From positions 250,501 through 314,500 of the forward strand of contig NZ_WGLM01000004.1 in NCBI RefSeq assembly GCF_016125575.1: 64,000 nt of DNA. The letters are read 5' to 3'. Below the pieces are notes generated by a model, which ran no database searches, was not told the DNA's origin, and saw only the letters and a program-made list of their open reading frames with translations. Shown here one piece after another: positions 10,274 through 15,973 of the stretch. Source of the stretch: Limimaricola sp. GTDB lineage: Bacteria > Pseudomonadota > Alphaproteobacteria > Rhodobacterales > Rhodobacteraceae. Both the position numbers and the translations under genes were made by a program. Numbering within the stretch: position 1 is the stretch's first letter; every line of letters begins with the position of its first letter.

Positions 10274-12757
10274 TCAAAGCGAGCGGACGACCTCTTCACG
10301 CTCGAAAATCTCGATCACATCGCCGGGGCGAATGTCTTCGTAGTTCTCGAACGCCATGCCGCATTCCTGACCAGACTGGACTTCGGGCACTTCATCCTTG
10401 AAGCGCTTGAGCGTCTTGAGCGTGCCTTCGTGCACGACGACGTCGTCGCGCAGCAGACGCACACCGGCCGACCGGCGGGCGACGCCCTCGGTCACAAGGC
10501 AACCCGCAACCTTGCCCACGTTGGAGACTTTGAAGACCTCCTTGATGGTGGCATAGCCGATGAACTTTTCCTTGATCGCATTGGACAGCAGGCCGCTCGC
10601 GGCCTTCTTCACGTCATCGACAAGATCGTAGATCACCGAGTAGTAGCGAATCTCGACGCCCTTCTGGTTCGCGGTATTGCGCGCGCTGGCATTGGCCCGG
10701 ACGTTGAAGCCGAAGACCGGCGCACCCGACGCCTCTGCCAGGCCGATATCGGTTTCGGTGATGGCGCCGACGCCCGAGTGCAGGACGCGCACGCGCACCT
10801 CCTCGTTGCCGATCTTCTCCATCGCCTGCACGATCGCCTCGGCGGAACCTTGCACGTCGGCCTTCACCACGATCGGCAATTCGGCGACGTTCTTGTCTTC
10901 CTTGGCCCGCGCCATCAACTGTTCCAACGTCGTGGCGGCGCCCAGCGCGGCGCGTTTGTCCTTTGCGACGTTCTCGCGATAGGTCGCGATTTCGCGCGCC
11001 TGTGCTTCGGTCTCGACGACGTTGAGCACGTCACCCGCTTCGGGCGTGCCGTTCAGACCCAATACCTCAACAGGCACCGAAGGGCCGGCTTCGGTCACGC
11101 GCTCGCCCTTGTCGTCGATCAGCGCACGGACCTTGCCCCACTGTTCGCCCACGACAAAGATGTCGCCCTGCCGCAGCGTACCGTTCTGTACCAGAACCGT
11201 CGCGACGGGGCCGCGACCCACGTCCAGCTTGGCCTCGATCACGGCACCCTGCGCCGCGCGCTTGGGGTTGGCCTTCAGTTCGAGGATCTCGGCCTGCAGC
11301 GCGATCGATTCGAGCAGGTTGTCGAGCCCCTTGCCAGTCAGCGCCGACACCTCGACGTCCTGCACGTCGCCCGACATCTTCTCGACCACGACCGACTGGT
11401 TCAGCAGGCTGGTGCGCACCTTGTCGGGGTTCGCGGTGGGCTTGTCGATCTTGTTGATTGCCACGATCATCGGCACACCGGCCGCCTTGGCATGGTTGAT
11501 GGCCTCGATCGTCTGCGGCATGACCGCGTCATCCGCGGCAACGACCAGCACGACGATGTCGGTCACCTGCGCCCCGCGGGCCCGCATGCTGGTAAAGGCA
11601 GCGTGGCCGGGCGTATCGAGGAAGGTCAGGACGGCCCCGGTATCGGTGGTCACCTGGTAGGCGCCGATATGCTGGGTGATGCCGCCGGCCTCGCCCGAAA
11701 CAACGTTGGCATGGCGGATCGCATCGAGAAGCGAGGTTTTGCCGTGGTCGACGTGACCCATGATGGTCACGATCGGCGGCCGCGATTTCAGGTCCTCGGG
11801 CTTGTCGTCGACGGTGTCGATGACATCCTCGACGTCGGCATCGGAAACCCGCACCACCTTGTGGCCGAACTCCTCGACGATCAGTTCCGCCGTATCGGCA
11901 TCGATCGTCTGGTTCTGCGTGGCCATGATGCCGTCTTTCATCAGCGCCTTGACGACATCCGCCACCCGCTCGGCCATCCGGTTGGCCAGTTCGCCAACGG
12001 TGATCGCCTCGGGCACTTGCACATCGCGCACGACCTTTTCACGCTCGGCGCTACCGCCCATGGCCTTCTGGCGGGCACGATCCTGCTTGCGCTTCATCGC
12101 GGCGAGCGAACGCTGCCGGCCGCCCTCGCCACCGGCGAGCGCGTCGTTCAGGGTCAGCTTGCCAGCGCGGCGACCTTCGTCCTCGCGGCCGGGCTTGGCC
12201 TTTGTCACCTTTTCGCCGCGCATGTCGCGCTCGCGGTCGGGCTTGCGCGGGGCAGAGGCAGGGCGCGGACCGCCGCGGTCATCCTCGGCACCGACCGGCG
12301 TCGGCGCGGTGGCAGCGCGGCGCGCGGCCTCCTCGGCCTTCATCCGCTTGCGCTCTTCTTCCTCGGCCTTGGCGCGCAGAGCTTCCTCGCGCTCACGCTC
12401 CTCGCGCTCCTTGGCCTCGATCTCGGCCCGGCGGCGTTCACGGTCTTCGGCGCGCTCGCGCTCTTCGGCCTCGCGCTTGGCGGCCTCTTCGGCCTCGCGG
12501 GCCTTGGCCAGCGCCAGCGCCTTCATCCGGCGTTCAAGCTCGGAATCGGAAATCCCGGCTGGACGCTTGGAGGGGTCGCCTGCGACAGGGGCTCCGGACA
12601 CGGTCGGCTTGGAAACGCCCGGCTTGGGCACCACCACGCGCTTGCGCTTGGTTTCCACAAGCACGTTCTTGGTGCGGCCATGGCTGAAGCTTTGCTTGAC
12701 GCTCCCCGGGCGGGCTCCGCCAAGACCCAGGGGCTTCTTGCCGTCGTTATCACTCAT
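10274..12757 (-). CDS. infB: Translation initiation factor IF-2
   Basis: This is an 827-residue GTPase that brings fMet-tRNA to the 30S subunit. The N-terminal third has a highly charged Glu/Arg-rich coiled-coil (about residues 80-160). The G domain has G1 [10 protein letters not shown]3 DTPGH and G4 NKID, followed by domains II-IV ending in [12 protein letters not shown]. It is the last gene of rimP-nusA-ylxR-infB, overlaps the ylxR stop by 4 nt (ATGA) and ends at the bidirectional terminator. An 855-codon open frame on the other strand is a GC-rich shadow. Confidence 0.98.
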
Positions 12758-13389
12758 CTGGCTACTTCATCCTTCCCGGCGGCTGTCTTGTTGCCGTCCG
12801 TTTCGCGCAAGCCGCGCAGCTTTGCGGCATCCTCTACAACACGGTCGCCCAAACCGCCAGACGCCACCGCGCCGTGGATCACAGTTTGGCGTCCGAACGC
12901 CAAGCCAAGCTCGGCGCTGGTCAGGCAGCCGAAGTACCGGGCCCCCTCGGGCGTCCATAGCTTCGTCTTGCCCCGTTCGGACCCGTCGCTGGCCTGAAGC
13001 AGGACGCGGACACGCGCGCTGCCGGCCAGCCAGCCCTTTACCTTCTCGAACCCGCAGACCGCATCACCGGCCTTGCGGGCAAGCGCGACAAGGTCAACGA
13101 CCCGCCGTGCCAACTGACGCTCGACCTCGTCGACCAGCCCATCGGGCACGGTGACGGGCCTTTTCGCCGCGCGGGCAAACTGCCCCTTGCGCGCCTGTTC
13201 AAGGACCGCCCGATCGGCGGTCACCCAAATGCCACGGCCGGGCAATTTGCCCAGAATGTCAGGCACGATTGCATCGTCAGGCCCCACGACGAAGCGGATC
13301 AGCCCGGCCTTGGGCTGAACCTCGCCGGTGACGATGCACCGCCGTTCCGCGCCGTCCGCGCTCTCGCCGTGATGCCCGCCGCGCGTCAT
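12754..13389 (-). CDS. ylxR: YlxR/DUF448 RNA-binding protein with L7Ae-like C-terminal domain
   Basis: This 211-residue protein has an N-terminal YlxR domain ([23 protein letters not shown], then [18 protein letters not shown]). It also has a C-terminal domain with the character of ribosomal L7Ae-type RNA-binding proteins ([19 protein letters not shown]). The fusion and its place between nusA and infB are standard in Alphaproteobacteria. YlxR proteins bind RNA and have been linked to RNase P and to transcription control; the role here is inferred. It starts 23 nt after nusA and overlaps infB by 4 nt. Confidence 0.9.
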
Positions 13390-13412: not shown

Positions 13413-15173
13413 TCAGACCTCCGCCTCCTCGTCTTCTTCCGTCTCGGTCTCGCCCATCAACTCGGCCGGATCGACCCAGCCAAGCATCACCCGGGCGGTC
13501 ATGACCATGTTCTGCGCCTCTTCAAGGCTGACATCGAATTTCTCCAGCACGCCATCGTCCTTGACGCGTTCGCCATTGACGGTGGTCCAGCCGCCGGCCA
13601 GTTCCCAGTCGGCGCAGGTGGCGAAATCTTCCAGCGTCTTGACGCCGTCCAGTGCGAGCGCCTCGATCATCTGGGGCGTCAGGCCCTCGAAATTGACCAG
13701 ACTGTCCTCGACGCCCAGTTCGCGGGCATGGTCGAGGGCCTTCTTGTTCTGCGCCTCGAGATAGTCGCGTGCCCGCGCCTGAAGCTCTGCAGCGGTGCCT
13801 TCGTCGACACCGTCGATCACCAGAAGCTCGTCAAGCTCCACATAGGCCACTTCCTCGAGGCTGGTAAAGCCCTCGGCAACCAGAAGCTGGGCAAAGAACT
13901 CGTCAAGATCAAGTGTATCCATGAAGAGTTTCGAGCGACTCTCGAACTCCGCCTGACGACGCTTGCTTTCCTCTTCCTCGGTCAGGATGTCGATATTCAG
14001 ACCGGTCAACTGGCTGGCAAGGCGCACGTTCTGGCCGCGACGGCCGATGGCGAGGCTCAGCTGCTCTTCCGGCACCACAACCTCCACGCGCTCTGCCTCT
14101 TCGTCGAAGACGACCTTGCTGACTTCGGCGGGCTGCAGCGCGTTGACGAGGAACGTCGGCACGTCCTGATTCCACGGGATGATGTCGATCTTCTCGCCCT
14201 GCAATTCGTTCACCACGGCCTGCACACGGCTACCGCGCATGCCGACACAGGCACCGACCGGGTCGATCGAGTTGTCGTAGCTGACCACGGCGATCTTGGC
14301 GCGGCTGCCCGGATCGCGGGCGACGGCCTTGATCTCGATGATGCCGTCGTAGATTTCGGGCACTTCCATCTTGAACAGGGCGGCCATGAACTCGGGCGCG
14401 GTCCGGCTGAGGAAGATCTGCGGGCCGCGCGGTTCGCGCCGCACTTCCTTGATGTAGCAACGGATGCGGTCGTTGGGCCGGTAGGCCTCGCGCCCGATCT
14501 TCTCGTTGCGGCGCAGGATCGCCTCGCCGGCGCCCACGTCAACGATGACGTTGCCGTATTCCTCGCGCTTGACGGTGGCATTGATGATGGTGCCGGCGCG
14601 GTCCTTGAATTCCTCGTACTGGCGGTCACGCTCGGCCTCGCGAACCTTCTGCAGGATCACCTGCTTGGCCGATTGCGCAGCAATACGGCCCAGTTCAACT
14701 GGCGGAACCTCGTCTACGATCTCGTCACCAAGTTCCGGTTCGGCGGCCTGGTCGATACCGGTCATGCCTTTGGCATCGGCCTCGGTCGGGGCGCGCAGCA
14801 GGAAGTGGCGCAACTGGCGCGTTCCGGTGACCTTGCCCTCTTCATCGCGCACGGGCGAAGTGGCGGCAACCACGGTCACCCGGGGGCGCGCATGCCCCAC
14901 CATCTCGGCCGCCTGCGCGGCGGTCATTTCAGCGTGGTAATTCTCCAGAACGTCCTCATCGACGACACTGCGCACACGGGTAAAGGTGGCCTTGCCGGTC
15001 TTGCGGTCGATCTTGACCCGGATGTCCATTTCGGCCCCGTAGCGGCTCTTGGCGGCACGGGCGAGGCTTTCCTCCATCGCCTCGACGACAAGGCCCGGAT
15101 CGATCATCTTCTCGCGGGCAACCGCCTCGGCGGTCTGCAGCAGCTCGAGCTGGTTGGCGGACGTAATGGCCAT
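13413..15173 (-). CDS. nusA: Transcription termination/antitermination factor NusA
   Basis: This is a 586-residue RNA polymerase-binding factor. The order is the N-terminal RNAP-binding domain (to about residue 130), an S1 domain ([20 protein letters not shown]), two KH domains (including [24 protein letters not shown] and [17 protein letters not shown]), and C-terminal acidic helix-hairpin repeats ending in a Glu-rich tail. The start ATG overlaps the rimP stop (TGATG). NusA modulates pausing and Rho-dependent and intrinsic termination, which is notable because the operon leader carries a terminator. Confidence 0.98.
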
Positions 15174-15784
15174 CAGTGTTTCTCCTCATCGCGCGGGGCG
15201 CTGTTGTCGTCATCGTCTTCATCACCGTCAAGGACGGTCTGCACTTCATCAAACTGGGTTTCGTCGATCTGGCCGGCATCCTTGCGGCCCCGCAGGACAT
15301 CGCGGATCAGATCATCGGTCAGTACCAGCTTGGCATCGCTGAGCCAGTCGAATTTCAGCCCGATCGTGCCCTGGTCGATCTCGATCAGCACTTCGTCGTC
15401 ATCGGTGCCGGCAAGGACGCCCTTGAACCGGCGCTGACCGTCGATCAGGTCCAGCGTCTCGATCCGGGCGACATATCCTTCCCAGCGGTCGAAATCCTTC
15501 AGCCGGGTCAATGGCCGGTCGATGCCCGGGCTGGAGACCTCGAGCGTGTAGGCATCAAGGATGGGATCCTCGACATCCAGAACCGCCGAGATCGCGGTAG
15601 AGATCATAGCGCAGTCGTCCACCTCGATACTGCCGTCGGGTCTCTGCGCCATGATCTGCAACGTGGTATCACGCCCGCTCATCAGCCGGACGCGCACCAC
15701 CTCGAACCCAAGGTCCTCGACCACGGGGGTGATGATTTCGGCGATGCGGCGGTCGATGGCCGCTTTGGCGACAAGATCGTTCAT
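15173..15784 (-). CDS. rimP: Ribosome maturation factor RimP
   Basis: This 203-residue protein is needed for 30S subunit maturation. The N-terminal domain contains [13 protein letters not shown] and the typical [11 protein letters not shown] lies near residue 90, followed by the Sm-like C-terminal domain and an acidic tail (DGDEDDDDN). I take ATG 15784 ([13 protein letters not shown]) as the start; longer in-frame readings run through the leader terminator and are not credible. It is the first gene of the nusA-infB operon. A clear Shine-Dalgarno is lacking next to the ATG; GAAGAAG lies about 15 nt upstream. Confidence 0.95.
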
Positions 15785-15811: not shown

Positions 15812-15835
15812 AAAAAAACGGGCGCGCGGCCCGTT
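15812..15835 (-). terminator. Leader terminator (candidate attenuator) of the rimP-nusA-ylxR-infB operon
   Basis: On the minus strand a perfect AACGGGC/GCCCGTT stem with a 5-nt loop is followed directly by a run of seven Ts. It lies between the operon promoter (15890-15918) and the rimP ATG at 15784, so it must be read through for the operon to be expressed. A second hairpin, GCCTTGG/CCAAGGC, precedes it in the leader (15850-15872). Confidence 0.75.
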
Positions 15836-15889
15836 GATATTTCCCGGTGGAGCCTTGGGGGTGGAGGCCAAGGCGCCGCTGTTGAAGGG

Positions 15890-15918
15890 GATATAGGGGG
15901 ATTGCCGGAGGAGTGCAA
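15890..15918 (-). promoter_or_regulatory. Promoter of rimP-nusA-ylxR-infB
   Basis: TTGCAC (15918-15913) and TATATC (15895-15890) are separated by exactly 17 nt on the minus strand. Transcription should start near 15883, giving a leader of about 100 nt that contains two hairpins. Confidence 0.7.
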
Positions 15919-15947: not shown

Positions 15948-15973
15948 AACGCCCCGCAAATCTGCGGGGCGTT
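15948..15973 (-). terminator. Intrinsic terminator of the peptide-type ABC operon
   Basis: A perfect 11-bp stem AACGCCCCGCA/TGCGGGGCGTT with a 4-nt loop lies 28 nt past the stop of the substrate-binding protein gene. The minus-strand sequence after it contains TTTT. Confidence 0.75.

Follow-up and report, generated by a model that had tools for sequence, protein, structure and literature searches.

A conserved leader of the rimP-nusA-ylxR-infB operon in Rhodobacteraceae combining a rimP-leader terminator with a covarying 5' domain and a candidate antiterminator

Organization of the rimP leader

In the window, i.e., the whole 64,000-nucleotide stretch of Limimaricola sp. DNA analyzed here, the leader of the rimP-nusA-ylxR-infB operon was located on the minus strand, and the gene upstream of it was assigned by Pfam as an ABC solute-binding protein. 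The features of the locus are as follows (the basis of each is given in parentheses).

15948..15973, minus strand: 10-bp hairpin of the upstream ABC operon, before the promoter and outside the leader (window sequence)
15913..15918, minus strand: -35 element TTGCAC (window sequence; element and 17-bp spacer in 105/108 related leaders)
15890..15895, minus strand: -10 element TATATC (window sequence; TATATG or TATATC in 89/105 related leaders)
Around A15883/A15882, minus strand: predicted transcription start (promoter position)
15876..15884, minus strand: conserved 5' strand CAACAGCGG (AGCGG conservation; nascent fold)
15852..15874, minus strand: hairpin 1, GCCTTGG (15874-15868) / CCAAGGC (15858-15852), with the 9-nt loop CCTCCACCC (fold; covariation)
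15844..15852, minus strand: conserved linker CTCCACCGG (near-invariant columns; consensus fold)
15817..15835, minus strand: terminator hairpin, AACGGGC (15835-15829), loop CGCGC, GCCCGTT (15823-15817) (sequence; fold; conservation)
15812..15818, minus strand: seven Ts (window sequence)
15173..15784, minus strand: rimP, first gene of the operon, ATG at 15784 (Pfam PF02576, PF17384)
13413..15173, minus strand: nusA (Pfam PF08529, PF13184)
12754..13389, minus strand: ylxR (Pfam PF04296)
10274..12757, minus strand: infB (Pfam PF11987, PF04760, IF-2)

The TTGCAC-17-TATATC promoter, the 7-bp hairpin and the 7-bp stem with seven Ts, all described in an earlier note made from the letters of this DNA, were re-found on the minus strand, as was the upstream ABC operon's own hairpin ahead of the promoter. 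After the latter hairpin there is only a weak run of Ts, CGCCTTTT.

Taken from the window sequence alone, these features are not beyond chance. A scan covering 12 kb yielded 8 terminator-like sites, whereas 9.3 were expected from shuffles, and thus no excess; the fold of the leader was unremarkable (z = -0.95), and the rimP promoter was absent from the output of a promoter scan, the rules of which are stricter. Despite the unremarkable single-sequence scan and fold, a chance origin was ruled out by the conservation and covariation described below.

Conservation of the leader across Rhodobacteraceae

A comparison across relatives, asked for in the earlier note, found both the stem and the leader conserved. 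The leader was present at 110/110 fetched Rhodobacteraceae rimP loci, which are close relatives by selection, and in a wider test on 149 Rhodobacteraceae genomes, one per genus, a covariance model built from 55 leaders matched it in 139 (127/132 among the good genomes). In the Limimaricola genome, the model detected a single strong copy (E 4e-26) with the next match at 1e-3, and the leader adjoined rimP wherever the context was read. Secondary matches of the model, in the Limimaricola genome as in others, turned out to be ordinary terminators, such as one after a tRNA gene, and a multicopy element or small RNA family was thus rejected. Across 142 genomes of the class, just one further strong match was obtained, in a second genome that also belongs to Rhodobacteraceae, and the best match outside the family (genome G286, E 6.5e-6) likewise lay before rimP. 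This rimP leader, from another alphaproteobacterial family (1501-1581 of its locus, minus strand), carries ACAGCGG, a hairpin and GGGCCGCTGGCCC, and the 5' domain may therefore predate Rhodobacteraceae. In the leader of Rubellimicrobium mesophilum, the hairpins are kept and the T run is interrupted (TCGTTTC), possibly a sign that termination has been lost.

The promoter was conserved together with the leader: a TTG-17-TA promoter at a constant distance to the leader was found in 105 of 108 related leaders, the spacer being always 17 bp. Since both promoter (105/108) and leader (139/149 family genomes) are kept across relatives, the leader is considered real rather than a product of chance. In many relatives (L031-L110), the conservation of the -35 region extends past the hexamer as CTTGCAGACTC, from which the window has diverged (TTGCACTCC, 15913-15918); this extension may serve as the site of a regulator or as part of an extended promoter. 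The gap between terminator and rimP is 27 nt in the window and 12-66 nt in the relatives. A leader-peptide attenuator coupled to translation was rejected, as the window leader has no ATG and an ATG occurs anywhere in just 54 of 205 leaders.

Structure of hairpin 1 and the terminator

In a plain MAFFT alignment, which was not fitted to structure, two-sided changes were observed in 7 of the 9 pairs of hairpin 1, amounting to 83 such cells compared with 35 in shuffles. The model alignment of 100 leaders, which leans in favour of the structure because it was fitted to it and overlaps the training species, gave 126 cells changed on both sides compared with 39 in shuffles, 95% being paired. In the same 100 leaders, the inner pairs of the terminator, its GGGC/GCCC core, were nearly invariant, and the outer pairs of the terminator covaried. 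The consensus fold further indicated that the CCG of the linker could pair with the CGG of the 5' strand. Shortened linkers (GCTACCGA) were noted in L012, L016, L022, L028, L029, L270 and L272; in most of this subgroup, the terminator loop is of a CCTG type that complements ACAG rather than GCGG, suggestive of a shifted pairing register.

Comparison among genomes established that the element is real, how it is structured and that it is tied to rimP. Its 5' domain of approximately 45 nt, consisting of CAACAGCGG, hairpin 1 and CNCCACCGG, appears to be specific to Rhodobacteraceae and looks new.

Relationship to the rimP-leader class and other known leaders

The "rimP-leader" with its GGGc...gCCC terminator, specific to the rimP gene, was the most widespread attenuator found by Naville and Gautheret (2010, PMC2965389), who also proposed feedback by NusA, as NusA represses the operon. 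Like the general form, the present leader lies before rimP of a rimP-nusA-infB operon and carries the GGGc...gCCC stem with a U stretch (ACGGGC/GCCCGT, seven Ts), and its distance of 27 nt from terminator to gene falls within the 4-130 nt of the class. In the general rimP-leader, Naville and Gautheret (2010, PMC2965389) detected neither a visible antiterminator nor any larger conserved element; the Rhodobacteraceae form has in addition a 5' domain that is conserved and covaries, together with a candidate antiterminator. Most of the rimP upstream regions read in other alphaproteobacteria, partly by eye, carry terminators of the GTGGGCC...GGCCCAC type. Given these terminators and the report of Naville and Gautheret (2010), the terminator type and the idea of NusA feedback were already known, and it is the Rhodobacteraceae-specific 5' domain that looks new. 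No published report of this domain was found in the open-access literature, although the lists of Naville and Gautheret may include Rhodobacterales terminators.

No Rfam family matched the window leader at gathering. The gammaproteobacterial rimP family RF01770 likewise ends in a GGGC...GCCC hairpin with a U run, and has an antiterminator with a tandem terminator; its gathering score is 47 bits, of which the window reached 17.7, and in this match the terminator of the upstream operon, outside the rimP leader, served as the first hairpin. SorX of Rhodobacter (RF02784; 13.7 bits, gathering score 46.6) resembles the leader in its two-hairpin outline with a C-rich linker, and in outline only. The weak Rfam matches to RsmY, SorX, ar9, isrK and rimP were accordingly dismissed as similarities of outline or terminator. 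The terminators t1/t2 of the E. coli metY-nusA-infB leader also precede rimP in an operon whose expression is controlled by NusA; the E. coli operon, however, has the tRNA metY and several promoters in front, neither of which is seen ahead of rimP here.

Candidate antiterminator

The 5' CAGCGG is complementary to the CC of the terminator together with its loop (CCGC, often CCGCUG). In the window, GCGG (15879-15876) can pair with CCGC (15829-15826), giving 4 bp only, and a 6-bp pairing is possible in 29 of the 205 distinct leaders. Of 218 leaders, 205 had AGCGG inside their first 13 nt, and loops starting with CCG[CU] occurred in 196 of the 205 distinct family leaders (approximately 95%) compared with 0/32 from other alphaproteobacteria. 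In leader L271 (genome G142), CAGAGG is matched by CCTCTG (CCUCUG in the RNA), a clean compensatory change. A pattern search for single-base changes of CAGCGG in 395 genomes identified one true 5' deviant, the compensated G142, and no uncompensated change at the base altered in CAGAGG within the terminator shape searched; the other variant matches were unrelated terminators or apical-loop positions. Just one clean compensatory change was obtained because the 5' strand is nearly invariant. For the few deviants, an association was obtained (p = 0.002) by a statistic that ignores kinship.

When the nascent RNA lacking the 3' arm was folded, 197 of 205 leaders paired their 5' end with the left arm, as against 54-60% in three controls, a control rate that is high because the sequences are G+C-rich. 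For the window, the fold reached -23.0 kcal/mol before the 3' arm and -25.2 kcal/mol with the terminator, and the terminator was the more stable end state in every case. On the basis of the loop conservation, the compensatory G142, the nascent folds and the window energies, a mutually exclusive antiterminator/terminator pair is favoured, and the conserved hairpin at the front of the leader looks able to switch off the stop signal. Alternatively, pairing with the linker CCG, or a protein, could be the reason why the 5' CGG is kept.

Proposed mechanism and alternative explanations

The attenuation put forward in the earlier note is well supported, in that the promoter, the 5' domain and the terminator have been conserved as a set before rimP across the family, and there is a conserved potential antiterminator; that reading had missed the pairing between CAGCGG and the terminator, as well as the family-specific nature of hairpin 1. 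The leader is probably a transcription attenuator of the rimP-leader class with an antiterminator switch and, as its most likely input, feedback by NusA. We infer the following course of events, which covers termination in vivo, the antiterminator and the trigger. Transcripts would start approximately 100 nt before rimP, and hairpin 1 would fold first. Once the left arm and loop of the terminator have been made, the 5' CAGCGG would pair with CCGC(UG) and keep the terminator open; otherwise, the GGGC/GCCC hairpin would form, and most transcripts would end as an RNA of approximately 72 nt. Read-through into rimP-nusA-ylxR-infB would then be set by a factor sitting on the 5' domain or promoting the terminator hairpin. 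This factor would most likely be NusA, acting as negative feedback: NusA has been reported to control its own operon in E. coli, and that E. coli work and the class-wide stem signature make it the favoured candidate, RimP or another factor being possible.

Some of the evidence would also suit a simple rimP-leader, namely a weak terminator tuned without any RNA switch by a protein, such as NusA, that reads the GGGC/GCCC stem, with the 5' domain serving as a protein-binding site or protecting the RNA end. The GGGC/GCCC core is kept beyond the needs of pairing and recurs before rimP in other alphaproteobacteria and many bacteria, and for the class no antiterminator was seen and NusA was favoured (Naville and Gautheret, 2010, PMC2965389). 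This explanation nevertheless leaves unaccounted for both the CCGC loop, which is kept only where the 5' CAGCGG exists, and the compensatory CAGAGG/CCTCTG leader, and we regard it as possible but rather doubtful. That the element is a back-up terminator of the upstream operon is scarcely credible: it does sit between two operons of the same direction, the first of which ends in a hairpin with a poor T run, but it lies downstream of a conserved promoter and is kept though the upstream gene varies. Because the identity of that gene changes from genome to genome (an ABC solute-binding C-terminus was recognized in 30/80), the leader hairpin is not the terminator of the upstream operon, as the earlier note had argued.

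UpsM of Rhodobacter is an RNA derived from a 5'-UTR that acts in trans, and several traits of the present leader would fit a terminated RNA of approximately 72 nt acting likewise as an abundant small RNA: its promoter is strong and conserved, its 5' end is constant, and its two hairpins are accompanied by a terminal U run and by single strands rich in C (CCUCCACC, CUCCACCGG). Such a role seems unlikely, since many leaders have lost or exchanged the apical loop, some of them carrying GAA-type loops, and there is therefore no conserved seed; moreover, the leader is always linked to rimP, the small RNA matches in Rfam were below threshold (13.7 against 46.6 bits for SorX), and the search of the open-access literature returned no report. 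It is also very improbable that the leader is a target of cold-shock/chaperone antiterminators. The nusA operon of E. coli is cold-induced, and antitermination by Csp proteins was proposed there, but the same paper argues against the Csp model in E. coli.

Implications for Rhodobacteraceae

The rimP-leader is the most widespread predicted attenuator reported. By virtue of its candidate antiterminator and its well-defined 5' domain, which covaries, the Rhodobacteraceae leader makes the question of the trigger testable on a 72-nt RNA, and it supplies a family model absent from Rfam. We tentatively envisage that in Rhodobacteraceae the rimP-leader terminator has become a true RNA switch, in which the invariant 5' end acts as the antiterminator strand and the covarying 5' hairpin is recognized by NusA, by RimP or by a further product of the operon. 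If this holds true, binding of an operon product that releases or traps the 5' strand would constitute a direct feedback on the transcription machinery.
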